Assembly (NCBI GenBank): GCA_015057435.1
Contig: SVEJ01000004.1
Location: forward strand, 30,818 to 94,817
Reading direction: 5' to 3'
DNA length: 64,000 nucleotides
Origin: Lachnospiraceae bacterium
GTDB lineage: Bacteria > Bacillota > Clostridia > Lachnospirales > Lachnospiraceae
Both the position numbers and the translations under genes were made by a program. Below, piece by piece: positions 9,063 through 64,000 of the stretch (position 1 is the first letter of the stretch; every line of letters starts with the position of its first letter). Below the pieces are notes generated by a model, which was not told the DNA's origin, searched no databases, and worked only from the letters and a program-made list of their open reading frames with translations.

Positions 9063-9989
9063 TCAAGGGTTACCGGTTCCTTTTACTTTCTTTAACTTCT
9101 GTGGACGAACAGTCAACACATTCGAATTTCTAAACTTAATCGTTTCGATTGCATTATATTCATAACCATCATCCTTAAAAGTAACATTTGTAAGTAATGC
9201 ATTTCCTTCCGGATCTGCTGAAATATAGAAACTTGCAATATCTTCTGACACAATACCAACCACTTCAGGATTGTCCTGACCAATAGCTGCACGTGGTACA
9301 AGAAATTGATAATTATACATCAGTGCATCTGTCCATGTCTCGACATCCTCACGACAGACAATCAACCGACGTGTATTATCTTTTGAATCTTTTACATCTG
9401 TAAAGTAATACACAACGTGCGTTGTAACGGGATCTCCGGATGCATTCACATTCGCATATTCAGCATAAATCCATGCCGGCATAATATATTGGTACGTTCC
9501 ACCCTGATTCAAAGCACGAAATGATTTCACTGCTACGCCTTCTTGATAATCATTATCGTAACTCATTGGATACGAATTACCTTCATCATCAACAATATCA
9601 AACGTATCAAGATTAATGATAACATCTCTTGTACCGTTATAACGCGAAGTCTGTGAATAATTGGCATAATTATCAGGAACCAACTGATAATTAATTTCAC
9701 CATATTCCGACACCGTGTTAGAACCGGAAGCAGATTTCTCGATTGTGTACAATTTATCATCTATCGACATAATACGTAGATAATTTGCTTGCATTAATGT
9801 GTCAGCGACCTGTTCCATCGTTGTCATTGCCTTCGTCTGTACACTCATATTCTTTTTCTGTTTACGATATGCAACTGACGAAGTACTCATAAACTGAACC
9901 ACCATAATCATTACAATTGAAAGGATTGTGACGGCAATCAGTAATTCAATTAATGAAAAACCTTGGTTTTTCTTTTTCATCTTTCCCAA
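9063..9989 (-). CDS. Minor pilin / pseudopilin, PilW-like
   Basis: Class III prepilin signal KKKNQG|FSLIELLIAVTILSIVMIMVVQFM, 308 aa, inside pilus operon. Confidence 0.8.
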   Translation of the reverse strand: MGKMKKKNQGFSLIELLIAVTILSIVMIMVVQFMSTSSVAYRKQKKNMSVQTKAMTTMEQVADTLMQANYLRIMSIDDKLYTIEKSASGSNTVSEYGEINYQLVPDNYANYSQTSRYNGTRDVIINLDTFDIVDDEGNSYPMSYDNDYQEGVAVKSFRALNQGGTYQYIMPAWIYAEYANVNASGDPVTTHVVYYFTDVKDSKDNTRRLIVCREDVETWTDALMYNYQFLVPRAAIGQDNPEVVGIVSEDIASFYISADPEGNALLTNVTFKDDGYEYNAIETIKFRNSNVLTVRPQKLKKVKGTGNP

Positions 9990-10003
9990 TTGTGTCCCCT
10001 CCT

Positions 10004-10579
10004 TTATTTGATGTAATGATTACCTGAAATTCTATCAATATAGATAGAACCGTACGAATTATCATTATACATAATCTTATATGTTCCTGCACCATATGCC
10101 ACAGATCCATTTGACTTATTAAACTGAATAATGACTGAAGTTATATCATTATCATCATATGAATTCAGCTCATGCTCGGAACCAACAGGACTATATTGAA
10201 TATCAATAATTTCTGTTAATACCGCAACTGTTTCTTTCTCCTGGAATCCGGCATCTGTACAATATCCAAGAATCATCTCGTATGCACCATCTTTTACATC
10301 ATCGCTTGAATCTGAATTTTTTAAAATCTGCATGCACAACGGATAAACAGCCTCTACATCTGAACTAGTTTTTTCACTATCAGATTGAACACTACCTTGC
10401 GATATTGCCTTTGTCTTAATCCAAAGTGCACTAACCTGACTTTGGAATGAATTAACCGCAGCTGTACATCTGGCATCTTTAATAATTCCAATTGTTACGA
10501 CTGCAACACCGGTAAGAATTGCCATAATACCGATGACAATGATCATTTCAATTAATGTATAACCTTTATTATTCTTCAT
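10004..10579 (-). CDS. Minor pilin / pseudopilin (GspH/FimU-like)
   Basis: Prepilin signal KNNKG|YTLIEMIIVIGIMAILTGVAVVTIG, 191 aa. Confidence 0.8.
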   Translation of the reverse strand: MKNNKGYTLIEMIIVIGIMAILTGVAVVTIGIIKDARCTAAVNSFQSQVSALWIKTKAISQGSVQSDSEKTSSDVEAVYPLCMQILKNSDSSDDVKDGAYEMILGYCTDAGFQEKETVAVLTEIIDIQYSPVGSEHELNSYDDNDITSVIIQFNKSNGSVAYGAGTYKIMYNDNSYGSIYIDRISGNHYIK

Positions 10580-10591
10580 GTCATCACCACC

Positions 10592-13500
10592 TTAGTCTAC
10601 GTTCTTCTTCCAGTTATCATAACTTAAGATATCCTCAAACTGAACAGCTGTAATGCTCTTTGTTGACTCTGTTTCAATCTTACCGTTTCCACCTTCCGGG
10701 GTGTAAATCGGCTGATATTTTTGGAACAATCCGCATACTTCGAAATAATTGTTTGTTGCAGACAACTGTGATTCATCACATTCACGAAGAATTGTCTTTA
10801 CAATTTCTTCGTTGGCTGCAAAATTCATAGAATGTTCAACTTTAATCTTACTACCTGATACGATTAATCCTTCGAATGAATTTACATTATCTTTAAATGT
10901 AACATCACCCTTACAGATAATCATACCCTTTACATTACCATCTGCAAATGAATCTGCATCCACTTCAACATCTCCCGTTGTAACCCAAATCTTATATCCG
11001 GATTTCAACTTTGTCTCAAGATTATTCCAACCATCTGAAAGCTTATTAAAATAGAAGAAATAGTTGATTGGAGTGATATCACTTTCTTTCATCGAATGTG
11101 CATCATTAACAGCATCCATGCTGGAACTTCTAGGAGTAAGTGTCCACTTAACCTCCTTATACTGTCCCTGTAATCTTGTTGTTACATCTTTTGCCAATGT
11201 AAATGAAGATTGACTTGTGTCTACACCTAACTGATCTCCTCTACCTGCTTCACCGGTCTTCACATAAGAATTCTGTTCATTGATATTCTTATTGATATTC
11301 TTAGCAGCCTGAATCAAAGGAGTAATACTGCTACTATCCGCTTTGATTGTAAAGCTTGTTCCGTTCTTAACAGTAATAGCAGAATTAGAGTAAATCTTCG
11401 AATAATTACCATTAGAATCTACTTCCGGAGCATCTGTTGTCTCATCATAAGATGTATTAATCTTCAACATCTCAATCTTGAAGTAATCATAATCAGTAAT
11501 ATCTGTTAATCCATATAAATCGCCAACGGATGTTGTGCTTCCTTCAGGAACATCAAACAACTGAGAATAAGCCTCAATAAACTTATTCATCACATCCACT
11601 TTGTCATCCGTAAGACCAGCTTTCTCCTTAGCATTTGTTGAAAAATCAAGGAAATAATATGTCTTACCCGAAATAACTGTCTTAATAACAGGAATCTTAG
11701 AAATAATATTCAGATTATCATCCTTATCATCCCAAAACTCATTGAGAATTGGCATTGATTGCATTGCCGGAGGTACATTCAAGAATAATCCTTCTTCCGT
11801 ATCAGCAATAGCCCAATTCGGTACATATGCAAGCTGATTACTCTTAATAGAAATCGCTTCACCTGTACGATAATCCTGAATTGAAGTCTTTTTCGTTGTG
11901 GTCGCTGATTCTCTATATTCAGTATAGTCATCATCTACCTGTTTTGCATTCTCTTTTCCTGTTTCATCAACTTCTTTTACAGTAACCTTTTTTTGTTCAG
12001 GATACTCATATGTATTATATGAAACGGCTTCGTTATCACCATTCTTATTGGTAACAGTATATGCATCAGCTGTATCATTGCCAGATGCATTCTTCGCTTT
12101 TTCGTTCTTTGTTGTTTTTTTAGAAGTTTCAATATAAGCCTGACCAGCAATATACATATTCGTTACACTGGATAAATCCAATGAGGAATCTTCACCATTA
12201 ACAATAATCGCACTACTATTATAATGTGCCTGACCTTCAATTGAAGCACCGTCTGCAATTGTGTCCTGCACTGCAGATGAAAATGTACGTCCACCGTTTG
12301 CCTTTACACAAACATCAGTATATGTACGATTATCTAATGTTGCATAATTGTATCCATAATACTGACCAACCATTGCAAATTGTGAACCTTTTGCATTTAA
12401 CTCTAAATCATCTGAAATATATGCGTCAGCACGCATCTTAACGATAGAACCTTTTGCTTTCTTCTTAGCCGGCTTAGTGGCATCTGTATTAGTTGTTGTA
12501 TTATCAATAAAAGAATAACCACCTAATACAATACTGTCTGCCCAGATTTCCGTAGAGTTATAATCACTTCCGCTTGAACCATAAATGTTCAACTCTGCGC
12601 TATTAAAGGCAGCAATCGTACCCGGTACAATGATACGGTCTGCATAGATAATAACATCAGCACCGTTAATATAAAGACCGGAATACATACTTTTCTCACG
12701 TCTACCGTCACTCTCTCTGTAACGAGAATCTGTAGCATCAGTATAGCTACTTACAGCCGCATACTTTGTTACGCTTCCGTCACTCTCACTCTTTGAGATA
12801 TAATTCGGATCACTTGAATCTGTAATATTATAATCTTTGTTATAGAAATCTGCTGCCGCATATACATTACCGGTAATATTAACATCCGTCGTTGCATTAC
12901 CAATTTCAACACCCTTGTCAGCAAGAAATGCAAATTTATACAATTCACTAAGATCTGAATCAATTGTATTGAAATTCACATCAAATTCAGGTTTACCAAT
13001 CACCAAATCTGTTGTGATTGTCTGAACGAATGTATCGCCTGCGCCTACAGAACCATCCGCTTGCTTTCTGGCATTCATAGTACTATATACAGCTTCTCTC
13101 TTTAAAATAAGATTAGTAATAACCAACTCATCTTCATTACCAACATTCACATTACCAACTGTTAGTAAAACACCTTCCGGATTATCAGTTGCATTATATA
13201 CATTACTAATGAAGGAATTAAGATGCTCTTTCACATTATCTGAAGTTTTGTAATTCGCATCATCCTTAACAAGTTTCATGTAGGTGTTCTTTAAGATGCG
13301 ATTAGCCTCATCATTCTTCATCGTTACATATGCCTGTGTCTCCGGATCAAAATACACAAGTACCTCGACCGTGTCATCATATGCCGTATTCAAATGCTTC
13401 ATTGCATCTGCACCAACACCGGCATAGATTTCATCCATTGCCTGTTCAAGATAATAGAAGTTATCTCTTGCATTAATATCATATGCTTTTAAGCGATAAC

Positions 13501-13621
13501 AAAGTGCAACTGCAACTAACATAGCTGCAACTAACACAGCAAGGAAAGAAATTGTAGCTACTACCATAATGTAACTATTACCTTGATTTTTCAATTTTTT
13601 CTTGAATTTACGTTTGAACAT
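10592..13621 (-). CDS. Very large PilX/GspK-like pseudopilin-type protein
   Basis: N-term KNQG|NSYIMVVATISFLAVLVAAMLVAVALCYR (prepilin-like, no E5); ~1009 aa; ATG 13621 overlaps the upstream stop as TGATG (listed TTG start 13624 unlikely). Confidence 0.7.
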   Translation of the reverse strand: MFKRKFKKKLKNQGNSYIMVVATISFLAVLVAAMLVAVALCYRLKAYDINARDNFYYLEQAMDEIYAGVGADAMKHLNTAYDDTVEVLVYFDPETQAYVTMKNDEANRILKNTYMKLVKDDANYKTSDNVKEHLNSFISNVYNATDNPEGVLLTVGNVNVGNEDELVITNLILKREAVYSTMNARKQADGSVGAGDTFVQTITTDLVIGKPEFDVNFNTIDSDLSELYKFAFLADKGVEIGNATTDVNITGNVYAAADFYNKDYNITDSSDPNYISKSESDGSVTKYAAVSSYTDATDSRYRESDGRREKSMYSGLYINGADVIIYADRIIVPGTIAAFNSAELNIYGSSGSDYNSTEIWADSIVLGGYSFIDNTTTNTDATKPAKKKAKGSIVKMRADAYISDDLELNAKGSQFAMVGQYYGYNYATLDNRTYTDVCVKANGGRTFSSAVQDTIADGASIEGQAHYNSSAIIVNGEDSSLDLSSVTNMYIAGQAYIETSKKTTKNEKAKNASGNDTADAYTVTNKNGDNEAVSYNTYEYPEQKKVTVKEVDETGKENAKQVDDDYTEYRESATTTKKTSIQDYRTGEAISIKSNQLAYVPNWAIADTEEGLFLNVPPAMQSMPILNEFWDDKDDNLNIISKIPVIKTVISGKTYYFLDFSTNAKEKAGLTDDKVDVMNKFIEAYSQLFDVPEGSTTSVGDLYGLTDITDYDYFKIEMLKINTSYDETTDAPEVDSNGNYSKIYSNSAITVKNGTSFTIKADSSSITPLIQAAKNINKNINEQNSYVKTGEAGRGDQLGVDTSQSSFTLAKDVTTRLQGQYKEVKWTLTPRSSSMDAVNDAHSMKESDITPINYFFYFNKLSDGWNNLETKLKSGYKIWVTTGDVEVDADSFADGNVKGMIICKGDVTFKDNVNSFEGLIVSGSKIKVEHSMNFAANEEIVKTILRECDESQLSATNNYFEVCGLFQKYQPIYTPEGGNGKIETESTKSITAVQFEDILSYDNWKKNVD

Positions 13622-15180
13622 CAAGATTCATTTCCTCCCTTCGTTCCTGTCATAATTGGTGGTTTCGAAGTATCAACCGCTTCTGGGTCATCACCTTTCA
13701 CCATCCAAACCTTAATATCAAATAAACCTCTGGTTTCTTGTTCTGCTTGATCTAAGTGACCAAAATTAGCAACACTTTCACTATAGTTAATAGTTGAACC
13801 TCCTGCATTATACGTTACAAGCGGTACATAATCTGTTGATGAAAAATCAAAATTGAATAAATCATCATCTCCTGCTCTGTAATGAACAACGTTATTCTTC
13901 TCATTATTAGTCGAAGTTCTTCCATCGATATCAAAATTATGATACACACTAAGATTTTGCAAATTCGAACCTTGCGCCGCAGCAAGATGAATAGCAACAT
14001 CTTTACGCTGAACATAATCCGTAGTTAAGTTATTGTTATATAATGTTGGGCGAATCGGGTCGCCGGCAGCATCCTTACTAACAATATCTTCATTCGCATT
14101 AATAATATTATCTGAGTATGTCTCAGCAGTTTCAACGATAAAGAAATTCACCTTTGTGTCGTCTGTAACACCTTTTGTATCAATTGCAACATAGTCATCT
14201 GCAGAAAACAAACCATTATATACACATACGTTATACATTAAGTAAATATTCGGTAACGTTGCCTTATTCGTATTCGGATCTACCGGATAATCAAACTCAA
14301 ACGGAACGTACTCAATATAATAATCATCCATCTCTGACTTCAGACTTGGTTTCCATTCGCAATTATCACGATACTTAAGACTACATCTCACCTTGTAACC
14401 GGACTCTTCGCTACCGGTTACTTTAACAGTAATCAAACGTGTAGCAGTATCGTTAGGAAACATATCAACAGCAGTTTCCTGCTGTGTATATCTCTCATAC
14501 CAATCTGACTCAAGTCTCTTCAACACTTCCAACTTTTTTGTAAGAAATGCTTTGGAAACAGCCGAATCATAATTGGCGATTGTACCATTAATCAATGCAA
14601 TCTTTGTATGATCAATATCCTCTACTACACCAAGTGCAAGATTATTCGGATTCACATATGAACCCTTAGAACCTGCTTCTTTGTCCGCATAATATTTATT
14701 ACTAATCTCCATCTTGTATGAATATGTTTCATGCTTTGTTCCAAGCTTCACCTTACCGGAAACCATATACGTCTCATATGGATAATAAGTAAGTTTACCC
14801 ATAGAATCATCAGATTTTAATTCCGACGGTTCTGTCTTAATATCTACTCCACTGTCTGTCAAAACCTCCGCAATCTTATCTAGCGAAGAATCATATGTTG
14901 TCTTTCCGGGTTCAATATAAAATGTTGCACTGGTTGAAACCGACTCAGAACCTGTTGATGTAAGATACTGTCCATTCACAACATCTGCAATCGTGTCCTG
15001 TTTCACATATTCCACCATATTTTCAACATATTCATTACGATACTGGAGCGTCTTGGCCTCAGTCGTATTCTTCATGGAACTAATAATACCTCCAACAATC
15101 GGACCCATCAAAATCATGAAAATCGCAATTGCTATCAGGATTTCAACCATACTGACACCTTTATTCACTTTTCTTCGCAT
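13621..15180 (-). CDS. Minor pilin, PilV-like
   Basis: Prepilin signal NKG|VSMVEILIAIAIFMILMGPIVGGIISSMKNTTEAKTLQYRNEYVENM, 519 aa. Confidence 0.75.
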   Translation of the reverse strand: MRRKVNKGVSMVEILIAIAIFMILMGPIVGGIISSMKNTTEAKTLQYRNEYVENMVEYVKQDTIADVVNGQYLTSTGSESVSTSATFYIEPGKTTYDSSLDKIAEVLTDSGVDIKTEPSELKSDDSMGKLTYYPYETYMVSGKVKLGTKHETYSYKMEISNKYYADKEAGSKGSYVNPNNLALGVVEDIDHTKIALINGTIANYDSAVSKAFLTKKLEVLKRLESDWYERYTQQETAVDMFPNDTATRLITVKVTGSEESGYKVRCSLKYRDNCEWKPSLKSEMDDYYIEYVPFEFDYPVDPNTNKATLPNIYLMYNVCVYNGLFSADDYVAIDTKGVTDDTKVNFFIVETAETYSDNIINANEDIVSKDAAGDPIRPTLYNNNLTTDYVQRKDVAIHLAAAQGSNLQNLSVYHNFDIDGRTSTNNEKNNVVHYRAGDDDLFNFDFSSTDYVPLVTYNAGGSTINYSESVANFGHLDQAEQETRGLFDIKVWMVKGDDPEAVDTSKPPIMTGTKGGNES

Positions 15181-15199
15181 GGTTAATCACTCCATTCTA

Positions 15200-16441
15200 T
15201 TAATAAACCTTAACAGCTCCCGACTTATTAGCAATCTTCACTCTAGGTGAAACGCTATCATCTCCTGCAACCTTAACATATACTGGAAGGTCTGTTGTGT
15301 TTCTGATTGAAACCTTAACACCAACCTTGTCATCATCATTCTTTCTGGCTGAAGACTGAATCAACAACTTAATATCTTCTGCAGATGTAACCTCAGCTTC
15401 ATAAGAAACGGAATCACCTAATGTATACTTGCAATAATTCTTTCCGTCCTTCTCATAGAACTCAAATGAAAGATTTGTTACATCGTTATCACTATTAGAG
15501 ATAACACTTGCTTCTTTTCCTGCACCATTCTGACCAACAACCTTAGCTGATACATCACTACTTGCAGGGTTCAACATTGCATAGAAATCATAGCTTGATT
15601 CAATTGCAGCACCTTCATTCTCATCATACTTTGTCATAGTAGAAACTACGCTAGACGAACCAGAACCAACTGCACCCTGGAAAATGTTATCTGTACCAAT
15701 CTCTACATCATTCATCTCCATTGATGTCTCAGGTCTGTCTGAACTTGTAACTGCATATAACATCAAGTTAAGTGCACCACCATAAAGGTCTGAATCAGCA
15801 TCATATGCAATTTCAATGGAATCAATTGTCATTCTGCTCTCAAAGTCATTAACATACTTCACAACATCCTTCAAAGATGCATATGAGCCTGTATACTCCA
15901 ATGGGAAAGCTGCACGATAGCAGTTATATTCTGCCTCATCAACCGCATCACCTTCCGCTAATGCTGTAGCATCTGTAGCAGCTTCTGTTGAAGCAGCCTC
16001 TGTCGATGCAGCCTCTGTCGAAGCAGCTTCTGTTGTTCCTGTTGTTCCTGCAGTTGCATCAAGAGTAGCATCACCACCACCAAGTCCTAATGTATAGAAC
16101 TGTTCCGGTTCACCAAGTTCCAAAGTCGCAATATCAAAATCGTTATTGTCCTTGATGCCCTCTAAGAACATAATTGTTACTTCCTGATTCAAGTCCGGTG
16201 CAAAAGCATCCAACTTTTCCTGAAATGCATTGTTTAATTTTTCAGTATTGGCGAGATACTCATCTCTTCTTGCTTCTTTCTGTTGAAGAAGTGTTAATCT
16301 ATCTTGTAACTGCACACACTCCGCCTTAATTGTCTGTGTCTCCTCATAATTTGGCTTAATTAGATACATAAAACCTAATACGGCAATTGCTATACCAGCA
16401 AGCACCACTAAAATACTCTTTTCTGAATCGCCTAATTTCAT
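15200..16441 (-). CDS. PilO-like inner-membrane assembly protein
   Basis: Short N-term, one TM (KSILVVLAGIAIAVLGFMYLI), coiled coil (ETQTIKAECVQLQDRLTLLQQKEARRDEYLANTEKLNNAFQEKL), position directly after pilM-pilN. Confidence 0.7.
   Translation of the reverse strand: MKLGDSEKSILVVLAGIAIAVLGFMYLIKPNYEETQTIKAECVQLQDRLTLLQQKEARRDEYLANTEKLNNAFQEKLDAFAPDLNQEVTIMFLEGIKDNNDFDIATLELGEPEQFYTLGLGGGDATLDATAGTTGTTEAASTEAASTEAASTEAATDATALAEGDAVDEAEYNCYRAAFPLEYTGSYASLKDVVKYVNDFESRMTIDSIEIAYDADSDLYGGALNLMLYAVTSSDRPETSMEMNDVEIGTDNIFQGAVGSGSSSVVSTMTKYDENEGAAIESSYDFYAMLNPASSDVSAKVVGQNGAGKEASVISNSDNDVTNLSFEFYEKDGKNYCKYTLGDSVSYEAEVTSAEDIKLLIQSSARKNDDDKVGVKVSIRNTTDLPVYVKVAGDDSVSPRVKIANKSGAVKVY
15975..16035. repeat. 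15-bp tandem repeat encoding (TEAAS)n linker in the PilO-like protein
   Basis: Minus-strand ACAGAAGCTGCTTCG ACAGAGGCTGCATCG ACAGAGGCTGCTTCA ACAGAAGC; four TEAA(S) units. Confidence 0.85.
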
Positions 16442-16457
16442 ATGTCTTCCCTCCTAA

Positions 16458-18086
16458 CTATTCTACTACTAATGAACCTGATTCATCAGCACCTTCATCA
16501 ACACCAATCTGCTCTTCTTCTACAACAGATACATATTGACAAGTTACATTGAATTCATGTGTCTCTTCACCTGTAGCATCATCTAATTCTGTCTTGATGT
16601 CTGTTACGAAAGCATCTGAAATACAACCAATCTTCTTAAGCTCGATTACAAACTTAGCAATTGCATCATAATTCTTAGAAGTTGCACTAATCTCAACATC
16701 TGCCTCTTCCGCTAAGAAAGAAGTAACTGCGACATCTTTTGGAAGACAATCTTCTAAAGATTCAATAAACATAATAAAGTTCTCGTTCAATGTACGTGTA
16801 TTATCGTACATAATCATAATATCATCATACTTTGCTTTTGCAGCATCGTACTCTGTAATAATCTGATCAATATCCTGAATTGCAGCAATCTGTGCATTCA
16901 AGCTATCTCTCTTCTGAATTTCGTTATTTTTAAGTATTGTTGTTACCGCAAAACCGGCACCCACTGCAACCGCGCAAAGTGCAGCGAAAACAACTGAATA
17001 CTTGAAATAATTCGTATCACCCACACGGGAAACCTTAACTTCTACCGGTTGGAATCCCATTGGATCAAATGCAGCACCGATTGCGGCTACCAAATATACA
17101 GGATTGAAAATCTTCTGATCAATCTTATCATCAAACTTAACATTGTATAAGCTATCCATAACTTTTGTCTGGATATTCAACTGAATCTTGAACAATCCAT
17201 CCACACCACGAATTAATGCTCCGTCACCAACAAGATATACATCTTCAATCGGCTTATCCGGATTCTTCGCTACATAGTAGTCAATCACACGACCAATATT
17301 GTTGATAAGATAACGGAACGCACCTGTTGCAGCATTATCATCAAAATCAACAGTGATTAATCTTTCATTCTGAAGAAGTGTCATTGCTGTCGTCGCATCC
17401 ACACCCTTCTCATCCATAACTTCTGTCACTACAGCATTCGTTCCGTACGGAACAGTTCTCTGTAATAACAATGTGTCACCTTTTACAATGTTCAAAATAG
17501 TAGATTCACTACCTAACTGGATTACCATCGTTGTTGAATTCGCACTTGTCTGGGTCTTGATTAGCTGTAACATTGCGTTACCAACATAATCGATTGCCTG
17601 AACAGTAAAGCCTAACATACTACCGAGTTCATAGTATCCCTTTACCATAGCAGTAGGAGCTGCAACAACCATGAGCTTTAACTGCTTAGACTTGTCGTCA
17701 GCAACTACATGTTCAAGTACAGAGTGAGAAACAACATAATCCTCTATGTTAACAGGGAAATATTCCGATGCATTCGCACTTACAATTCCCTTTACTTTGT
17801 TCTCTTTTACCTCTGGAATCAAAACTTCACGGTTTACAACCTTTGTAGAAGTTAAGATAAAAATTACATTCTTGTTACTAATACCATTGCTGTCTAATTG
17901 CGCTCTGATTGCACTTGCAATCTTAGAAGCGTCTTTAATGTTACCATCTTCATATGCGTCTTCCGGTGTTTCGAAAATCAACGCATTATGTACCTGTGTA
18001 CCCTTCTTCACTGAAGGAGTAACCTCAACTATTGTAATACTTTCATTTGTTATGTCTATTGTTAAGACTTTATTACTTTTCGCCAT
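16458..18086 (-). CDS. pilM-pilN: Fused PilM (actin-like ATPase) - PilN assembly protein
   Basis: N-term actin-like (VLTIDITNESITIVEV...PVNIEDYV...VQAIDYVGNAMLQLI...VYLVGDGALIRGV); C-term TM plus PilN-like segment (YFKYSVVFAALCAVAVGAGFAVT...LNENFIMFIESLEDCLPKDVAVTSF). ATG 18086 has GGAGG 8 nt upstream. Confidence 0.85.
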   Translation of the reverse strand: MAKSNKVLTIDITNESITIVEVTPSVKKGTQVHNALIFETPEDAYEDGNIKDASKIASAIRAQLDSNGISNKNVIFILTSTKVVNREVLIPEVKENKVKGIVSANASEYFPVNIEDYVVSHSVLEHVVADDKSKQLKLMVVAAPTAMVKGYYELGSMLGFTVQAIDYVGNAMLQLIKTQTSANSTTMVIQLGSESTILNIVKGDTLLLQRTVPYGTNAVVTEVMDEKGVDATTAMTLLQNERLITVDFDDNAATGAFRYLINNIGRVIDYYVAKNPDKPIEDVYLVGDGALIRGVDGLFKIQLNIQTKVMDSLYNVKFDDKIDQKIFNPVYLVAAIGAAFDPMGFQPVEVKVSRVGDTNYFKYSVVFAALCAVAVGAGFAVTTILKNNEIQKRDSLNAQIAAIQDIDQIITEYDAAKAKYDDIMIMYDNTRTLNENFIMFIESLEDCLPKDVAVTSFLAEEADVEISATSKNYDAIAKFVIELKKIGCISDAFVTDIKTELDDATGEETHEFNVTCQYVSVVEEEQIGVDEGADESGSLVVE

Positions 18087-18117
18087 CTCCATAGCCTCCC
18101 TTGCTAATCAGAAGTTT

Positions 18118-18939
18118 TTAATAGGGTCTTACACCCAACATGTTCAGATACCAGCTTATCAGCTGTTCACCGCATATCATTGTAATATAAACGCCCAAAG
18201 ATAAATACGGGCCGAGAGCGAGTACTGCACCGCTCCCCTTAATCTTCATACGAATCAAATGTATCACTGACCCTGCAACGCATCCGATTCCTAATGCTAA
18301 AAAATTAAGTTTCCAGCCTAAAAGTAAGCCAGTTGCTGCCATTAATTTAATGTCACCGTCCCCTATTACCGAATCCAACTCCTCTCCCGCGTGTTTCTTT
18401 GCAAGAATCGGGGTTGCAACTTTATCTACCAGTAATAAAAAACCGCTGACTGCAATAAGACCAATTACATATTCAAACCAATTAGAAAAATCTGCAAATA
18501 ATTGAATTAGTCCACATACAAAAATTACGCCGCTCATTTCAAGCGGTATATATTGTGTGTTCCAATCAACAACAGCTAATGACAATAAAGCTGCTGTTGT
18601 TATCCCACACAAAACGCCTGTAATCCCTGCCCCCTTCGACCAAAAAGCGAGCGTCACGAGAATACAATTGGCGATAAAATAGGTTGTTATGTATGACAGT
18701 TTCGTTCTAGAAACATAGTCACACTTACCCCTAACACGAAAAAAGGAAAAAAGCATCCATTGAGAAAGATTCTCATCCTTACTAAACAAAGCCTTTTTCA
18801 TAGCAAAACAATCCGTGCGGCCATTACACGTATTGCAAGGCTCTTTTTCCATATTAGAGATAAAACGTGACAAAGGAATTGCAGCACATCCAATCAGGGC
18901 TGTTACAATTCCAATTACTATTCCTATAAAAACTTTCAT
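18118..18939 (-). CDS. pilD: Type IV prepilin peptidase (A24 family)
   Basis: Polytopic; CNTCNGRTDCFAMKK cysteine cluster, AVVDWNTQYIPLE and VIGDGDIKLMAATGLLLG aspartyl motifs. Confidence 0.9.
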   Translation of the reverse strand: MKVFIGIVIGIVTALIGCAAIPLSRFISNMEKEPCNTCNGRTDCFAMKKALFSKDENLSQWMLFSFFRVRGKCDYVSRTKLSYITTYFIANCILVTLAFWSKGAGITGVLCGITTAALLSLAVVDWNTQYIPLEMSGVIFVCGLIQLFADFSNWFEYVIGLIAVSGFLLLVDKVATPILAKKHAGEELDSVIGDGDIKLMAATGLLLGWKLNFLALGIGCVAGSVIHLIRMKIKGSGAVLALGPYLSLGVYITMICGEQLISWYLNMLGVRPY

Positions 18940-18955
18940 AATCTTTCCTTATAAT

Positions 18956-18984
18956 GCGATGTGTCTTTATATAAGACACATCGC
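18956..18984 (-). promoter_or_regulatory. Intercistronic hairpin between major pilin and prepilin peptidase
   Basis: Perfect 12-bp inverted repeat GCGATGTGTCTT (18956-18967)/AAGACACATCGC (18973-18984), 5-nt loop, no clear T tract. Confidence 0.75.
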
Positions 18985-18998
18985 AATGCAATCATTAA

Positions 18999-19502
18999 TT
19001 ATGGAGTTTGACCACCAGCTGTACAGTTTGCAGCAGACTCGTTTGTCAAACACTCAGAAGCATCTGGGAAAGCAACGTGACCACCACCGATTTCAACTTT
19101 AACTGTGTTTGCAGCTTTGTCAACAGAAATAAGGAAATTGCGATCTTCATCACCACCTGTTTCAGCAGCACTCTCAGCAATACACTTCTTAGACTTAACC
19201 TTAGGTGCGTTTGTACCACCGATTGCAGACTTCATTGTCTTCTTAAATGCATCATCATCTGACCAATAAGTTGAAAGTGAAGTACTTGTAATTGTATCTG
19301 GACATGCATCATAACCAGACTCATTTGCTAAAGCTGTCTGAATAGCTGTAGCAATTGTGTTAGCTGTCTGAATATCTGTAGATACTCTTGACTTGTTGAT
19401 GTACTTAATAAGCGCTGGTGCCAACGCACCTGCCAAGATAGCCATAATCGCAATAACGATAATAAGCTCAACCAATGAGAAACCTTTGTTCATTTTTTTC
19501 AT
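18999..19502 (-). CDS. Type IV major pilin
   Basis: MKKMNKG|FSLVELIIVIAIMAILAGALAPALIKYINKSR; 167 aa; own RBS AAAGGAG and a >100-bp upstream gap. Confidence 0.88.
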   Translation of the reverse strand: MKKMNKGFSLVELIIVIAIMAILAGALAPALIKYINKSRVSTDIQTANTIATAIQTALANESGYDACPDTITSTSLSTYWSDDDAFKKTMKSAIGGTNAPKVKSKKCIAESAAETGGDEDRNFLISVDKAANTVKVEIGGGHVAFPDASECLTNESAANCTAGGQTP

Positions 19503-19609
19503 AATTCATTCTCCTTTACTTATAAAAATTTTTATTAAAACTGCCATGGCCGGACAGTATTAACCTTACATTATATTATGTAACATAAACATCTACGACG
19601 TTCCTTCGT

Positions 19610-20818
19610 CTACATATTACTAACACCTTCGTACATACCAAGGATTGGTCCGTAAACAGCCGCAACAATCATACCAACGATACAAGCCATAATCACCATC
19701 GTAAGTGGCTCCATCGCCTGTGTCAAAGCTTCTGTTGCAAGATCCACTTCTCTGTCATAAAGATCTGCAACTTTCTCCATCATGTCTTCAATATTACCAG
19801 TCTCCTCACCAATCTTAACCATCTGTACAAGCATGGTAGGAAATACTTCCATATCTCTTAATGGTTTTGATAAAGGAAGACCTTTTGCAACCTGCGCCTT
19901 CGTATTCATCAAGCCATCGCGGAAAATCTTATTATCCATCATCTTAGCAACCTGTTCAATTGCATCCAACATCGGAATACCAGCTGCCATCAATGTACTT
20001 AATGTTCTTGCAAATCTTGCAGTATTCGACTTAATAACCAAGTTACTAAAGATTGGTGCATTCACTCCAATCTTCGCAGAAACCATCTGACCCGTTGGTG
20101 TAGCCAAGAATACTTTAATTGCAACAACGATACCAATTATAACCGGAAGCAAAATAAACCACTTTTCCGTAATCAACTCACTACCAGCCATCATAATTCG
20201 CGTCGGAAGCGGCAACTGCGTACCCATATCTTCAAACATCGACACGAAGTTCGGAATAACAACAATCATTACAACGATTACTACTAATACCGCAACAATC
20301 ATAACCATGATTGGATATGTAAGTGCTCCCTTAATCTTACCTTTCAATGCATCATCTTTTTCAAAATGGATTGAAAGTCTGTCAAAAGATGTTTCCAAAC
20401 TACCCGATAATTCACCAGCAGCAACCATGTTAATCATAATCGGCGGGAATACATCCGGATTCAAACGAAATGCATCCGCCAAACTTCCACCTTTTTCAAC
20501 ATGAATCTTCGCTTCCACAATTGCAGCTTTTAAAGTCTTATTATCCATCTGCTCCGACAACATCTCCAATGCAGTAATTACTGTAACACCTGCATTCAAG
20601 ATACTTACCATCTGCTTACATAGAATCGACAAGTCACGACTCTTTACTTTCTTTTTACCAATCGTAATTGGTCTTACTTCTCCAGCATCACTTAAGTCAG
20701 TAACCTGAAGACCTTCTGCTTTTAATTTCTCCTGGGCCTTCTCGCGATCTGCAGCATCAATGGTACCTTTCTTATTCTTACCATGCTTATCAATCGCTTT
20801 GTAATTAAACTGTGCCAT
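19610..20818 (-). CDS. pilC: Type II secretion / T4P platform protein PilC (GspF family)
   Basis: MAQFNYKAIDKHGKNKKGTIDA...LCKQMVSILNAGVTVITALEML...LVQMVKIGEETGNIEDMMEKVADLYDREVD. Confidence 0.93.
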   Translation of the reverse strand: MAQFNYKAIDKHGKNKKGTIDAADREKAQEKLKAEGLQVTDLSDAGEVRPITIGKKKVKSRDLSILCKQMVSILNAGVTVITALEMLSEQMDNKTLKAAIVEAKIHVEKGGSLADAFRLNPDVFPPIMINMVAAGELSGSLETSFDRLSIHFEKDDALKGKIKGALTYPIMVMIVAVLVVIVVMIVVIPNFVSMFEDMGTQLPLPTRIMMAGSELITEKWFILLPVIIGIVVAIKVFLATPTGQMVSAKIGVNAPIFSNLVIKSNTARFARTLSTLMAAGIPMLDAIEQVAKMMDNKIFRDGLMNTKAQVAKGLPLSKPLRDMEVFPTMLVQMVKIGEETGNIEDMMEKVADLYDREVDLATEALTQAMEPLTMVIMACIVGMIVAAVYGPILGMYEGVSNM

Positions 20819-20994
20819 ATGCTCCTCCACCATTCATCTCATGCCATACCCTATCACACACTATATTTAAATAATGCATAAACAAAATATGAACAATTTA
20901 TTAACATTCGATATATTGATAATACAACAACATTGTCATTATTGCAATATTTTTTTGCAAATTTTATGAAATATTATCAAATATATACAATTTC

Positions 20995-22047
20995 TTACAT
21001 TTTCTTTCTCATTGCAACCTGATCCTGTGCGTAAATTAGTGCATTTTCACGACTTATCGCACCCTCTCTGTACAATTCATACAAATGATCATCCAAAGTA
21101 ATCATTCCAAGCTGACGACTCGTCTGAATTGTCGATTGAATCTGGTGTGTCTTTTGTTCACGAATCAACGAACGAATCGCCGGACTACCAAACATTACCT
21201 CAAACGCAGCCACTCGACCTCTTCCATCTTCCGCAGGAACAAGCGCTTGTGAGATTACACCTTCCAAAATCATCGCCAACTGGATACGTGTCTGCTGTTG
21301 TTGGTGCGTTGGGAATACGTCAATAATACGGTCAATCGTATTCGCAGCACCAATTGTATGTAATGTAGAAAATACCAAGTGACCAGTCTCAGCAGCCGTA
21401 ATCGCTGTGGAGATTGTCTCAAGGTCACGCATCTCTCCTAAAAGAATAATATCCGGATCCTCACGAAGTGCTGCACGAAGCGCATTACCGTAACTCAATG
21501 TATCCATTCCAACTTCTCGCTGGTTTACTACTGATTTCTTGTGATGATGCACATACTCAATCGGATCCTCCAATGTAATGATGTGATCAGTCAAATTCTC
21601 ATTCGCCTTATTAATAATAGAAGCAAGTGTTGTAGACTTACCGGAACCGGTTGGTCCTGTTACTAATACAAGTCCCCTTTTCTTTTTATACAATTCTACA
21701 ACCTCAGTCGGAATTCCTAACTGGTCCGGTCTAGGAATAATAGTTTCTACTCGACGATAAGCAGCCGCCATGTTCCCTCTGTCCATGTACACATTCACAC
21801 GGAAACGTCCAGTTTCATCAGAGTCGAAAGAAAAGTCAACCTCTCCTCGTTCCTTTAAGACTTGTTTGTGACGCTCATGCATCGTCGCTCCAATCATCTC
21901 AGCCGCATCCATAGGTGTAAGTGCCGGACTTTCTACCTCAATCAACTTACCATTGATACGAAGCTTCGGCGGAATACCTACCGCAATATGTACGTCTGAT
22001 GCTTTCTGTTCTACAGAAAAAGCAAGTAATTCTTTAATATCAATCAT
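20995..22047 (-). CDS. pilT: Twitching motility retraction ATPase PilT
   Basis: Walker A VTGPTGSGKSTTLASII, ITLEDPIEYVHHHKKSVVNQREVG, LREDPDIILLGEMRD, TAAETGHLVFSTLHT. Confidence 0.95.
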   Translation of the reverse strand: MIDIKELLAFSVEQKASDVHIAVGIPPKLRINGKLIEVESPALTPMDAAEMIGATMHERHKQVLKERGEVDFSFDSDETGRFRVNVYMDRGNMAAAYRRVETIIPRPDQLGIPTEVVELYKKKRGLVLVTGPTGSGKSTTLASIINKANENLTDHIITLEDPIEYVHHHKKSVVNQREVGMDTLSYGNALRAALREDPDIILLGEMRDLETISTAITAAETGHLVFSTLHTIGAANTIDRIIDVFPTHQQQQTRIQLAMILEGVISQALVPAEDGRGRVAAFEVMFGSPAIRSLIREQKTHQIQSTIQTSRQLGMITLDDHLYELYREGAISRENALIYAQDQVAMRKKM

Positions 22048-22073
22048 GTTTTTCCCCTTTCAGCTTATATATT

Positions 22074-23795
22074 CTAATATTCATCTCCAGCTTCGTATAC
22101 AATCTTACGCATCTCAGATAATGACGTAATACCATTCAATACGTGTTTTGAACAACTAAGCTTCAATGTAAGCATACCTTCATCCAATGCTTTCTTTTCA
22201 ATTTCATTAGCAGGTGCGTTACGTGCAATAACCTCGCGCAGACCTCTCGAAACCGGCATCATCTCATACACACCGATACGTCCGGAAAAACCGGTCTCAT
22301 TACACATCGGACATCCTGTTGGTTCATAGATCACTACATCATCTTCATCACCAACACCAAGCAATAATTTTTCATGTTCCTCTGCATATCTTGGTTGCTT
22401 ACATGTACACAAACGTCGAACAAGACGCTGTGCAATAACACCTACCAAAGCATCACCTGCCGTATACGGCTCGATACCCATATCAATCAGACGAGTAACA
22501 GTTGATGCAGCCGAGTTGGTATGTAATGTAGATACAACCAAGTGACCTGTAATAGCCGCTTTAACCGCAATATTCGCTGTCTCCTCGTCACGAATTTCTC
22601 CGATCATGATGATATCCGGGTCCTGACGTAAGATAGAACGAAGCGCAGCCGCAAACGTCATATCCGCTTTTTCATTAACCTGACACTGGTTGATACCATC
22701 AATATTCGCCTCTACCGGATCCTCTACTGTTACAATATTAACGCCTTCCACATTCAACTCACTAAGTGATGTGTAAAGTGTAGTAGATTTACCGGAACCT
22801 GTAGGTCCTGTTACAAGAATGATTCCATGTGGGTTACTAAGAATACCATCGAACACCTTAAGCTCATCCTCACTAAATCCAAGTCCTGATTTCGGTTTTG
22901 TTAAACCATCTTTTGATGTAAGACGCATAACGGTCTTTTCTCCGTATACTGTAGGAAGCATAGATACACGGATATCAAACTCTTTTCTATCAACCATGAT
23001 AGAAATACGACCATCCTGCGGTTTACGTTTTTCAGAAATATCCATACCACCCATAATCTTCAAACGTGCACAGATACCTGATAGTAAAGAATAGTCGTAT
23101 GACATAACTTGCTTTAACACACCGTCAATACGATATCTGACACGAACCGATGTCTCTAACGGCTCAATGTGAATATCGGATGCTCTTTGTCTAACACCAC
23201 TCTCCAAAATCTGTTTTACAAGCAATACAATCGGAGAATTCTCAATATCTGCGTTATACTCATCCTCTTCAGCCTGAGAAAGCATATCCTGTTCACGTTC
23301 CTTACGATAAGCTTCCGCAGCTTCCATCGCCTGATGATTGCCATAGTACTTACCGATTGTCTCCATCAAGTCATCTTCCATAGCAAGAACTGCTTCAACC
23401 TGACAGTTAGTTACAATCGAAATATCATCAACTGCAATGATATCCATCGGATCAATCATCGCAACACGAAGTACATTCGGATTATTCTCATCAAATCCCA
23501 AAGGCATAACATTATACTTCATAATGACGTCTTCCGGTATCAACGACAATACTTCGTCATCAAACTTACAACCTTTCAGTTCGATATAATCCACACCAAG
23601 CTGTTGTGTCAAAACAGCAATCAATAATTCCTTACTGATTATACCTGATTCCAAAAGTGTCTTACCTAACTTCTGGCCTTTTTCCTTTTGCAAAACTAAC
23701 GCTTCTTGCAACTGTTCTTCTGTGATTGCACCTGCCGCAACAAGCAAATCACCCATCCTGATTTTCTTTCTTCCTACTCCAATACGCATATGCAT
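22074..23795 (-). CDS. pilB: T4P extension ATPase PilB
   Basis: N-terminal MshEN/GspE-like domain, VTGPTGSGKSTTLYTSLSEL, RQDPDIIMIGEIRDEETANIAVKAAITGHLVVSTLHTN, zinc site CTC...CPMCNETGFSGRIGVYEMM. Confidence 0.95.
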   Translation of the reverse strand: MHMRIGVGRKKIRMGDLLVAAGAITEEQLQEALVLQKEKGQKLGKTLLESGIISKELLIAVLTQQLGVDYIELKGCKFDDEVLSLIPEDVIMKYNVMPLGFDENNPNVLRVAMIDPMDIIAVDDISIVTNCQVEAVLAMEDDLMETIGKYYGNHQAMEAAEAYRKEREQDMLSQAEEDEYNADIENSPIVLLVKQILESGVRQRASDIHIEPLETSVRVRYRIDGVLKQVMSYDYSLLSGICARLKIMGGMDISEKRKPQDGRISIMVDRKEFDIRVSMLPTVYGEKTVMRLTSKDGLTKPKSGLGFSEDELKVFDGILSNPHGIILVTGPTGSGKSTTLYTSLSELNVEGVNIVTVEDPVEANIDGINQCQVNEKADMTFAAALRSILRQDPDIIMIGEIRDEETANIAVKAAITGHLVVSTLHTNSAASTVTRLIDMGIEPYTAGDALVGVIAQRLVRRLCTCKQPRYAEEHEKLLLGVGDEDDVVIYEPTGCPMCNETGFSGRIGVYEMMPVSRGLREVIARNAPANEIEKKALDEGMLTLKLSCSKHVLNGITSLSEMRKIVYEAGDEY

Positions 23796-46413: not shown

Positions 46414-47387
46414 ATACAATCCTCCGTTCCCCTTGCGACAATTGAAACCCATTCGCCAAGATAAATGGTATCTATAATCTCAAAACCGTTATTTAGTAGT
46501 GCTGTTTTTACAGCTTCTTCTTTATCATCTATAATACCCGATGTAATAAACACACCTTCCGGTTTCAAAAATGGTTTAATCACACCCGATAACGGAATAA
46601 TCACATCAGCTAAAATGTTGGCCACGACGATATCAAATTGTCCAATCGAAGCAACACGTTTCGCAAAATCAGAATCATGAATGACATCTCCCTTGACAAT
46701 TTCATAATCTTTTTCATCTATTCCGTTTAACTTAAGATTTTCCTTGCTTGCTGTAACCGCAAGCTCATCTATGTCGATACCGTACACACGATTGGCACCA
46801 AGCTTCATGGCAATAATAGAAAGAATACCGCTTCCGCAACCTGCATCCAACACGCTTGTAGTCCCATCGTCTTTGATATACTTTTTCAAATTCGTAATAC
46901 ACAATCTGGTTGTCTCATGCGAACCGGTTCCAAATGCAGTTCCCGGATCTATCTGTACAACAATATCATCCTGATTCGTATCAAGCACCTCAGTCCAGGT
47001 TGGCTGAATTACGATATTATCTTCTAACCGAAATGGATGAAAAAAGTCTTTCCAACGATTCATCCAATCCTTATCGTCTGTTTCACCTATCGTAATGTTC
47101 CCGGTTCCTGTTGACATATATTCAGACATTTCCAAAAGTTGTTCTCCGATATATCTGCAGAGATCTTTCACATTAATCTTCTCATCTACATAACATGATA
47201 TCAACGCAACACCGTCATCCGGCGGAAGCTCCGGCAATATATCAATATACATTGCTTTTTTATCTTCTTCCGATAGCGGAATCTTATCTTCAATCTCAAT
47301 TCCTTCTACACCATATTCATCTAACAGATAACTTAGCATATCCGTTGCTTGTGTCGTTGTCTCAACTGTAACTTTTGTCCACTTCAT
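46410..47387 (-). CDS. prmA: Ribosomal protein L11 methyltransferase
   Basis: MKWTKVTVETTTQATDMLSYLLDEYGVEGIEIED...DPGTAFGTGSHETTRLCI...VLDAGCGSGILSIIAMKLGANRVYGIDIDELAV. Confidence 0.94.
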   Translation of the reverse strand: MKWTKVTVETTTQATDMLSYLLDEYGVEGIEIEDKIPLSEEDKKAMYIDILPELPPDDGVALISCYVDEKINVKDLCRYIGEQLLEMSEYMSTGTGNITIGETDDKDWMNRWKDFFHPFRLEDNIVIQPTWTEVLDTNQDDIVVQIDPGTAFGTGSHETTRLCITNLKKYIKDDGTTSVLDAGCGSGILSIIAMKLGANRVYGIDIDELAVTASKENLKLNGIDEKDYEIVKGDVIHDSDFAKRVASIGQFDIVVANILADVIIPLSGVIKPFLKPEGVFITSGIIDDKEEAVKTALLNNGFEIIDTIYLGEWVSIVARGTEDCI

Positions 47388-60613: not shown

Positions 60614-61594
60614 TTATCTTCCGCTGAACGAAACAATCAGTAACTCTACGCCTACTGTATCTTTAATAACTCCTGTTTTTATCTCCTGATCCGTTTGAGC
60701 ACATCTTTCTAACATTTGCTTTAACTGTGCATAATCAAACGCAAGAGATTGATTAATGTACTTTTTCACAGTAAACGGCGGAACACCGCATACTGATGCA
60801 ATCGTCTTAGCATCCGCCGATGCCTTATGAAGTTCTTCTACCTGTAATAAAATATTATAGTGTCTTGTAAGTAAGCTCAATATCTGCATAGCAGGTCTTC
60901 TTAGTTCCAACAAATCATGATATAACTTCAGTGCTTTTTTCTGGTTCTTTCCGCCAATTGCATCTAACATCTCAAACATCTTGTCATCAGCCTCATCAAT
61001 ACAGACCTGTCTGATATCGTTAATGGTAATCGCATTTCTGCCTTTGCAATATGAAAACAACTTTTCTAATTCATTCTTTAAAAGAAACATTTCTGTTCCC
61101 ATATGTTCAATCATGTAAAATACAGCTGTGTCTTCTATCGTCATTCCTTCTTCATTACATAACTTACGAATCCACGCAATCAGCTTTTTCTCATCCGGCA
61201 TGTCTAACTTCGCAACATATCCATGTTTTTGAAACCATTTATACAAGGCATTTCTTCCATCCACTTCGTCTTCAACCATAATGACAATCGTCGACTCCGG
61301 AAACTGTTCAAAATGATTACTGACACCATCTGTTGCTTTTTTTAATAAACCTGTATTTTCCAAAACAATCAATCGATAATCCGAAAAAAACGGCAACGTC
61401 TCTCCCGCCTCATATATCGTGGATAAATCAGGATTATTACCCTCTGTATACAGGTAGTTCATTGCATCATCCGTATTAACAATCGCCTTGCTAAGTTTTT
61501 CTTTATATTGCTTTTTTAAATACCCTTCATCCCCCATCAAAAGATAGAACTGTTGAAAAGCGGCATTTTTGATATCCTGGTTTATTCGTTCCAT
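60614..61594 (-). CDS. holA: DNA polymerase III subunit delta
   Basis: FYLLMGDEGYLKKQYKEKL...AGETLPFFSDYRLIVLENTGLL...AIGGKNQKKALKLYHDLLELRRPAMQILSLLTRHYNILLQVEEL. ATG 61594 has GGAG 7 nt upstream. Confidence 0.88.
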   Translation of the reverse strand: MERINQDIKNAAFQQFYLLMGDEGYLKKQYKEKLSKAIVNTDDAMNYLYTEGNNPDLSTIYEAGETLPFFSDYRLIVLENTGLLKKATDGVSNHFEQFPESTIVIMVEDEVDGRNALYKWFQKHGYVAKLDMPDEKKLIAWIRKLCNEEGMTIEDTAVFYMIEHMGTEMFLLKNELEKLFSYCKGRNAITINDIRQVCIDEADDKMFEMLDAIGGKNQKKALKLYHDLLELRRPAMQILSLLTRHYNILLQVEELHKASADAKTIASVCGVPPFTVKKYINQSLAFDYAQLKQMLERCAQTDQEIKTGVIKDTVGVELLIVSFSGR

Positions 61595-61607
61595 ATTCAT
61601 TCTCCTG

Positions 61608-63161
61608 TTACTGCTTCGAACAATATTCATCGATCCAGTATGTTTTTCCATCCGTTTCTATGGTAATTGTTCCGGAATGTTTTGTCAAATATATCTTTGA
61701 AACATGTTTTTCTAATCTCTTCATCACATCCAAAGACGGATGTCCATATGTATTATTCTCTCCTACTGATATACATGCAACATCCGGTGAAAGCGCTCTC
61801 AAAAACTGCTCGGATGTAGAAGTAGCAGAGCCATGATGTGCAACTTTTAACACTTCAACATTACCCTTTATCTGTTTTGCTACACAGTCCTCACCATACA
61901 TTGTCAGATCACCCGTTAACAACATATCAAAATCCGTGTAATTCAAGTGTAAAACAATACTGCTGTCATTTTTTTCTTCATAATCCTGTTTCTTTGGATT
62001 CAGACATGCAAGACGAACCCGATCGACATATACTTCATCTCCCATTTTTATATAATCTATGTCACAACCTTTTTGTTGCGCTAATAAAACCAGTTCCATA
62101 TACGCCTCGTCCGGATTGGTAATATTCGGTAATACAAGATGACGGATTGCGATTTCATTTGCTTCCAGCAACTCTTTAATTCCACTATAATGATCAATGT
62201 CACTATGTGTCACAAAGACATAATCCAATATTATACACCCATGATACTTCAAGGTACTTTTGATAACATAATCTCCAACATTTCTTTTTGTACTACTACC
62301 CCCATCCACCAATATATGCTGATGATGTTGCGTCTCAATATAGATGCAATCCCCTTGACCTACATCTAACAGACGAATACAAAGATTTCCCGGTAAAACA
62401 AATGCAAAAAAACTAATTCCCAGCAAAGCAATGCTTAACATTCCGCGTAGTCGTTCCTTTTGGTAAAAAAAATGAATCGCTAAAATCAAAAAAGCATAAT
62501 AAAATACAACCCAAGTCCAATGAGGTCGCCCAAAACAAACTGTATGAAACGGAAAAAACTCTGTAATTTTACATAGCATTTCATAGAATCCAAAAATCCA
62601 ATCCGGTAAAAAAGCAAGAACTCCTGCAACTTCGACAAAGCAAACTCCTAATATTCCGCATAGTATTAAAAATGCAAGCAAATAATTCATAAGCGGTACA
62701 ACAACCAGATTCAATAATACACCGTATAGCGGTATTTCATAAAAAAACCAAAGCAAAACAGGTGTTATAACTAGCTGTACACTAAAACTGACAGATAAGC
62801 CTTCCGACAAAAACGATAATCTCGGAAAATACATTTTCCAAAGAGGTTTTATAAAAATGATTCCGCACACTGCTCCAAAAGATAATAAAAAACCCGCCTG
62901 GGTAATCTGATACGGATTCCAAATAATCATGACAAACAACGCTAATGACATTGCTGTAAGACCATCATAACGCCTCCCTGCCACATCCGCACCAATTGAT
63001 ACAAGCAACATAACAATCGCCCTACAAGTTGCACCGGACAAACCTGACAAAATACCATATAAGATAATAAATGTTCCCCCAACCAAAGCTGCAACCTTGT
63101 AACTACCAACCATTTTTCTTAAAAAATGATATAATGTACCTCCAATCATGGCAATATGCAA
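61608..63161 (-). pseudogene. comEC: ComEC/Rec2 family DNA uptake channel, N-terminally truncated (probably disrupted by element insertion)
   Basis: Starts at the conserved (S)GLHIA motif (TTG start), then TM core LSGATCRAIVMLL and complete metallo-beta-lactamase-like C-domain (LLDVGQGDCIYIETQHHQHILVDGGSS...FVTHSDIDHYSGI...KVAHHGSATSTSEQF). Normal N-terminal OB-fold/TM region absent; in-frame TAA at 63243-63245. Confidence 0.8.
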
Positions 63162-63227
63162 TCCCGTCTGAACGATTACCCTGTTAACATTATGGCATCT
63201 TTCCTTAATGTATAAGGGTTCTAACGC

Positions 63228-63299
63228 TATCCCCCTATCCTCTTATCCCTCGATTTCTAAAAGGGATAACCCTTTGTGTTATCCGCACCCTCTTTATCC
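63228..63299. repeat. TATCC short-repeat array (possible integrase arm-type sites)
   Basis: TATCC at 63228, 63236, 63244 (exact 8-bp steps), 63280, 63295, plus inverted GGATA at 63264. Confidence 0.6.
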
Positions 63300-63354
63300 T
63301 ACTTTAAACCGAATTATTATACCCACCTAATATGGAATTAATGTGAAATTTTTG

Positions 63355-63403: not shown

Positions 63404-63715
63404 TTATATTTTTTTAAATGTATTAGAATTTAAGCTATCTTTCTTTTGAACCTCAATCCCTAGTTCTTTTTGATGTTCATATAATTTCACACCAAGATTA
63501 GCTGGAGGAGTAGCAACAAGGTCTCTTAATGCAAAAATATTATCCTTTTCCATTTTGGATATCTTATCTACAACAGTCTGCCATAGTTTCCCATATGTCC
63601 TATCTTCCAATACCGTATCTTTACAGTAGCTTGGCACATCTGGATATCCTGCATCTTTAGCTAATTTCTCTAATTTTGTCCATTCAACATCACTTACCGT
63701 AAATTGCACTCTCAT
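63404..63715 (-). CDS. Small ribbon-helix-helix/DUF1413-like accessory protein
   Basis: MRVQFTVSDVEWTKLEKLAKDAGYPDVPSYCKDTVLED (RHH-like) ... IFALRDLVATPPANLGVKLYEHQKELGIEV; ATG 63715 with GAGGTG RBS. Confidence 0.6.
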   Translation of the reverse strand: MRVQFTVSDVEWTKLEKLAKDAGYPDVPSYCKDTVLEDRTYGKLWQTVVDKISKMEKDNIFALRDLVATPPANLGVKLYEHQKELGIEVQKKDSLNSNTFKKI

Positions 63716-63732
63716 ATATAACACCTCTTTCA

Positions 63733-63770
63733 TTTCTTTTAAGGTAGTTGTTCAGTTTCCTTAAAAGAAA
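63733..63770. promoter_or_regulatory. 12-bp inverted repeat directly upstream of the RHH/DUF1413-like gene (candidate operator)
   Basis: TTTCTTTTAAGG (63733-63744) / CCTTAAAAGAAA (63759-63770), perfect, 14-bp spacer. Confidence 0.7.
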
Positions 63771-63838: not shown

Positions 63839-63917
63839 ATTCTTTCTTGCTATTTTTTTCAACTCACCGTAAGACTGAAATTTTAACGCCTGTATTCTAT
63901 CAATTCAAGAACCCCAA

Positions 63918-64000
63918 TTACAAACTCAATGTCCGCACAACATCTTTGTATCTCTCTGACTTGAGTCGGATATCCTCTTCTGTCACACCATAATATCTAT
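63918..64000 (-). CDS. C-terminus of a probable tyrosine recombinase/integrase (5' part outside window)
   Basis: Frame from the window edge reads RYYGVTEEDIRLKSERYKDVVRTLSL*, resembling the R-Y-x-G-(V/I)... tail after the catalytic Tyr of clostridial integrases; only ~26 aa visible. Confidence 0.4.
   Translation of the reverse strand, partial: RYYGVTEEDIRLKSERYKDVVRTLSL

Follow-up and report, generated by a model that had tools for sequence, protein, structure and literature searches.

Among described systems, the closest are phi1207.3 (formerly Tn1207.3) and phi10394.4 of Streptococcus pyogenes; phi1207.3 lies in comEC, carries an overlapping pair of serine recombinases close to its right end and is reported to use a dinucleotide target with a GA core (PMC4260502). 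Transformation of pneumococcus is impaired by phi1207.3 and returns, at a low level, once the prophage is excised (PMC10383233). Work on large-serine-recombinase elements in competence genes (Durrant et al. 2022, PMC10083194; Croucher et al. 2016, PMC4774983) gives Mg chelatase (comM) as the target of 12.4% of predicted site-specific integrases and reports, in PMC10083194, an enrichment of DNA competence genes among the sites hit by serine recombinases; comEC is not among the targets named in the excerpts drawn on here. Conflict of mobile elements with transformation has been put forward as an explanation in PMC4774983 and PMC12637031. No published Lachnospiraceae case of an insertion in comEC was found in the literature. 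Since phi1207.3, the enrichment of competence genes as targets and the conflict explanation have all been published, the comEC prophage described here is a further case of an already described kind, prophage insertion into competence genes via serine recombinases, here in a Lachnospiraceae-like host.

The comEC element resembles phi1207.3 in its insertion in comEC and in its right-end layout (holin, amidase, two overlapping serine recombinases, cargo, end), with protein identities of 52% for the second recombinase (SR2, vs. Orf57), 43% for the first (SR1, vs. Orf56) and 55% for the holins. It differs from phi1207.3 in its host, its cargo and its core, reported as GA in phi1207.3 whereas a putative GG is proposed here, within the sequence CGGG shared by the two junctions. 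In the comparison with phi1207.3, no resistance genes were seen in the recovered parts of the comEC element.

A comEC gene divided between two contigs

The window analyzed is a stretch of 64,000 nucleotides (G000:C53:30818-94817) from a Lachnospiraceae genome assembled in 74 contigs (G000), and contig C53 ends at window position 64000. The features of the window are collected in Table 1.

Table 1. Features of the window that bear on the comEC insertion (window positions; C31 is a second contig of G000, L124 an IMG/VR contig).
Feature	Position	Strand	Basis or remark
Type IV pilus cluster (PilB, PilT, PilC, pilins, PilD, PilM/N)	9063..23795	-	Pfam matches
holA, host gene 3' of comEC, synteny anchor	60614..61651	-	comEC-holA-rpsT order kept in G003, G011, G005
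comEC 3' remnant, 517 aa (GLHIA to stop)	61608..63166	-	PF03772, PF00753, TIGR00361
CCCG (CGGG on coding strand), right junction attR; putative crossover dinucleotide GG (CC on +, 63163-63164)	63163..63166	.	same four bases at C31:120-123
Element end beside junction, GGATA-type repeats, no gene	63167..63330	.	sequence; 100% identical to L124
Cargo ORF, 109 aa, possible small DNA-binding protein	63404..63733	-	no Pfam or PHROG match
Last 26 codons of 221-aa element ORF running past contig end	63920..64000	-	complete in L124:4031-4696

Of the roughly 755 codons of comEC, the 3' remnant keeps the final 517, and its first residues are GLHIA. Its Competence domain was matched from profile position 31, together with Lactamase_B and the NCBIfam model, and over its whole length the remnant was 54-58% identical to the intact ComEC of the closest congeners. 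The metallo-beta-lactamase-like motifs HSDIDH and HHG were present and conserved across 11 relatives, in agreement with the original prediction, made from the sequence, that this part of the protein is intact. ComEC likeness was found only downstream of GLHIA, exactly where the gene had been said to be truncated; above this point the frame encodes ALEPLYIKERCHNVNRVIVQT, which has no likeness to ComEC, with the expected TAA at about 63243. Neither ATG nor GTG occurs at the 5' end of the remnant, the sole candidate start being the TTG of GLHIA itself. Of the interval first given for the truncated gene (61608-63170), the stop at 61608 was right, but the last comEC-derived base lies at about 63166 and not at 63170.

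The missing part, predicted as about the first third of ComEC and sought at the other boundary of the element, amounts to 237 residues (about 31% of a 755-residue protein) and was found at the start of contig C31 (C31:120-832), which gave the only match in a search of G000 for the ComEC N-terminal domain. This 5' piece ends exactly ...HLIAISG, after which the frame runs through about 11 codons of foreign sequence to a stop. The two pieces together (237 + 517 residues) have the length of the closest intact relatives (754-760 residues). Neighbours of the 5' piece on C31 were a GerM-like gene, a two-component system (RR-HK) and comEA. The order RR-HK-GerM-comEC-holA-rpsT was unbroken in the congeners G003, G011, and G005 (comEA being partly covered in one of them) and was divided between C31 and C53 only in G000. 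Since both halves were found, and congeners with the same gene order have an unbroken comEC, the break in comEC lies between ISG and GLHIA, and four bases (CGGG) are common to both sides. Between them the two contigs carry the domains that mark ComEC/Rec2, the Competence membrane domain and the C-terminal metallo-beta-lactamase-like domain, with the DUF4131 N-terminal part on C31; the single unbroken frame of about 750 aa is split between C31 and C53, and comEC is here a disrupted gene, not a working one.

The short form of comEC was absent from congeners with a full-length comEC match, and a few draft genomes gave broken matches or none. The original prediction had staked itself on a 5' fragment at the other boundary and on the lack of relatives with the same short comEC; with the fragment found and no short form among those congeners, it is therefore supported. 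An assembly or binning artefact, in which two unrelated contig ends would break in comEC by chance, is very improbable and largely contradicted: such an artefact would agree with the absence of the element from the bin and with the closeness of both contig ends to the break, but not with the common codon and bases at which the two halves join, the conserved synteny or the presence of the right junction in an independent metagenome contig (L124).

Element ends and linked phage genes

The duplicated core that had been sought at the far end took the form of the short CGGG common to both ends. The two element ends, when joined, gave an attP-like sequence, CGTTCAGACG-GG-TGTCTGCACG, which is an imperfect inverted repeat around GG (11/18 positions). 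GG was the best centre of this reconstructed attP, and because 13% of shuffles match that score at some centre, we propose GG only as the putative core dinucleotide. The left element end, of only about 120 bp, was without match elsewhere; two exact patterns from it gave no match in IMG/VR, nor did attL or attP, and the right att pattern matched G000 alone across 397 family genomes. A comEC profile search of IMG/VR was set aside, as it returned mostly ComEC-like metallo-hydrolases covering the C-terminal domain only.

Over 875 bp, of which about 40 bp belong to comEC, the IMG/VR contig L124 was 100% identical to the end of C53. Past this end it continues into the 221-aa ORF, a regulator of XRE type and a pair of large serine recombinases, of which the first is incomplete. 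Both recombinases have Resolvase, Recombinase, and Zn_ribbon_recom domains and are encoded in tandem (SR1 and SR2) with an overlap of 38 bp. L132 and L133 (99.97% identical to L124 where overlapping) complete the first recombinase and add, upstream, genes for an HTH protein, an amidase-glucosaminidase (Amidase_2 + Glucosaminidase), a phage holin (PF05105), and a tail-type protein; in L135, a tail gene and the C53-type flank lie on one contig, with an internal deletion. Two traits of phi1207.3-like elements were thus found, namely a tandem pair of overlapping large serine recombinases at the integration end (L124, L132, and L133) and, on linked contigs, phage lysis and structural genes. Because amidase, holin, and tail genes lie on contigs linked to the comEC junction, the inserted element is, to judge by its genes, a prophage with tandem large serine recombinases. 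SR1, SR2, and most of the prophage were absent from the G000 bin (first 20 kb of all contigs; Resolvase search), the only Resolvase match there being another recombinase on contig C66.

Relatives of the 109-aa cargo ORF were found in a goat-gut Lachnospiraceae MAG (87%) and in Terrisporobacter phage TPDSL_ph1 (59%); its assignment as a mobilization protein was rejected, as the NCBIfam MbpA match reached only E 0.007, far below the cut-off, and the phage relative lies among tail genes. The 221-aa ORF opens with a short segment that resembles the beta subunit of the Na+-transporting decarboxylase (SVIGGADGPTSVFV; OAD_beta, E 5e-4, short of the cut-off). A 39-bp stretch at window 63857-63894 was also found, 87% identical, at G000:C4:63664-63702, in both places after the end of an ORF and near a contig end, and may mark a common cargo boundary.

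Related recombinases beside comM and dprA

SR2 relatives 76-83% identical directly adjoin truncated competence genes in other IMG/VR contigs. In L137 (12760-14162) and L142, a related prophage (SR2 76%) lies beside comM lacking its 5' end, with dprA and topA intact next to it in L137, and in L136 (2640-3158) another one (SR2 83%) lies beside dprA lacking its 5' end. These contigs, and L138 (comM), share with the comEC element the same recombinase pair, its position at the prophage end and a transformation gene as target. They differ from it in the target sequence, comM and dprA both carrying GGAAGCCAGA at the break (codons for EAR), and in the end repeats, GGGTTCA vs. GGATA at comEC. Among the comEC, dprA, and comM versions of SR2, the first 400 residues were 80-95% identical whereas the last 123 were only 60% and 46% identical, and this C-terminal divergence may be related to target choice. 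A more distant recombinase pair (46%) in G418 adjoins another comM break; among the genes downstream of 16 more distant pairs, truncated comM was found only in G418 and no competence gene was recognized elsewhere. It is conceivable, if rather doubtful, that in one gut-prophage lineage the targets of a paired serine-recombinase module have moved between comEC, comM, and dprA, the C-terminal part of SR2 having diverged most rapidly, and that the module is selected for insertion into competence genes, irrespective of the precise site.

Two further contig structures were observed. At L133:3700-4400, the end of a recombinase element lies in comM, and next comes the 5' part of dprA, fused to the interior of a phage tail gene; this is either a real rearrangement or a chimeric contig, and L133 was rejected as proof of a dprA insertion, as the dprA piece meets the middle of the tail gene and not an element end. 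L134 (1-1300) and L135 (1-1520), from different metagenomes, have the same deletion, which joins a tail gene to the middle of SR2, with the lysis genes and SR1 gone; this form is a decayed prophage, possibly locked in.

Some of these data run against a single element in comEC that carries SR1 and SR2, as do the absence of both recombinases from the bin and the shortness of the recovered left end (about 120 bp). L134 has the same recombinases as L124 and parts from it at L124:4009, after identical recombinase sequence, and the comEC site and its GGATA repeats differ from those of the 76-83% relatives, the repeats being closer to the GGGGATA of the recombinase element beside comM in L133. The different right flank of L134 and these repeats would allow a nested arrangement, a separate integrative element in comEC with the SR1/SR2 phage inserted inside it. 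We regard this as unlikely, since the divergence at L124:4009 resembles cargo-gene exchange and not an att site, and both layout and homology fit phi1207.3, with tandem recombinases near the right end in comEC and cargo between recombinases and att.

Predicted consequences for transformation

The split of comEC, its junctions and the gene order were observed, as were, on linked contigs, the recombinases and other phage genes. We consider it probable that a temperate phage integrated in comEC at the codons of the conserved IAISG-LHIA motif, with SR1 and SR2 near its right end as likely integrases, and that comEC is inactive meanwhile. These tandem recombinases, presumably the ones that made the insertion, would most likely have recombined attP with comEC through a staggered exchange of 2 bp, probably at GG, leaving comEC as a 5' piece of 237 codons and a 3' piece of 517. 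No working ComEC would be made while the prophage is resident, because the 3' piece is without a proper start codon and the 5' piece without the channel and nuclease-like domains. As ComEC is required for natural transformation, it is reasonable to infer that transformation is off while the prophage is integrated, as originally predicted; that the disruption is recent is likewise a reasonable inference.

The pilus genes first pointed out were confirmed. PilB, PilT, PilC, PilD, PilM/N, and pilins were all found, in a cluster that also holds 1010- and 519-aa proteins, both unclassified, and this type IV pilus is probably DNA-capture machinery. comM and dprA are intact in G000. The window also encodes, outside the comEC finding, a repetitive surface-type protein of 2966 aa (37552-46452). 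DNA caught by the type IV pilus and ComEA would, for want of a working ComEC, be unable to cross the membrane, and the blocked uptake would keep imported DNA from removing the prophage by homologous recombination, to the probable benefit of the phage; precise excision would restore comEC, so the loss may be reversible.

Active lysogeny has been proposed for comK phages in Listeria. As a supplement to the integration of a temperate phage in comEC, a regulated switch of this type, with excision restoring comEC when competence is needed, has a small probability here. It would agree with the precise insertion in coding sequence, with no comEC codons lost, and with the low-level transformation regained after excision of phi1207.3 (PMC10383233), but neither an excised form nor an intact comEC was present in the G000 assembly, no excision circle and no empty site of this species came to light, attL and attP were without match in IMG/VR as noted above, and a link between competence and excision is not visible from sequence.

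Integration of a prophage in comEC adds a Lachnospiraceae-like gut bacterium to the cases of conflict between prophages and natural transformation. The close recombinase modules in comEC, comM, and dprA form a natural comparison, which could reveal how a serine integrase switches to a new target. Since the pilus set, comEA, comM, and dprA are kept and comEC is intact in congeners, the host genus could be naturally transformable.
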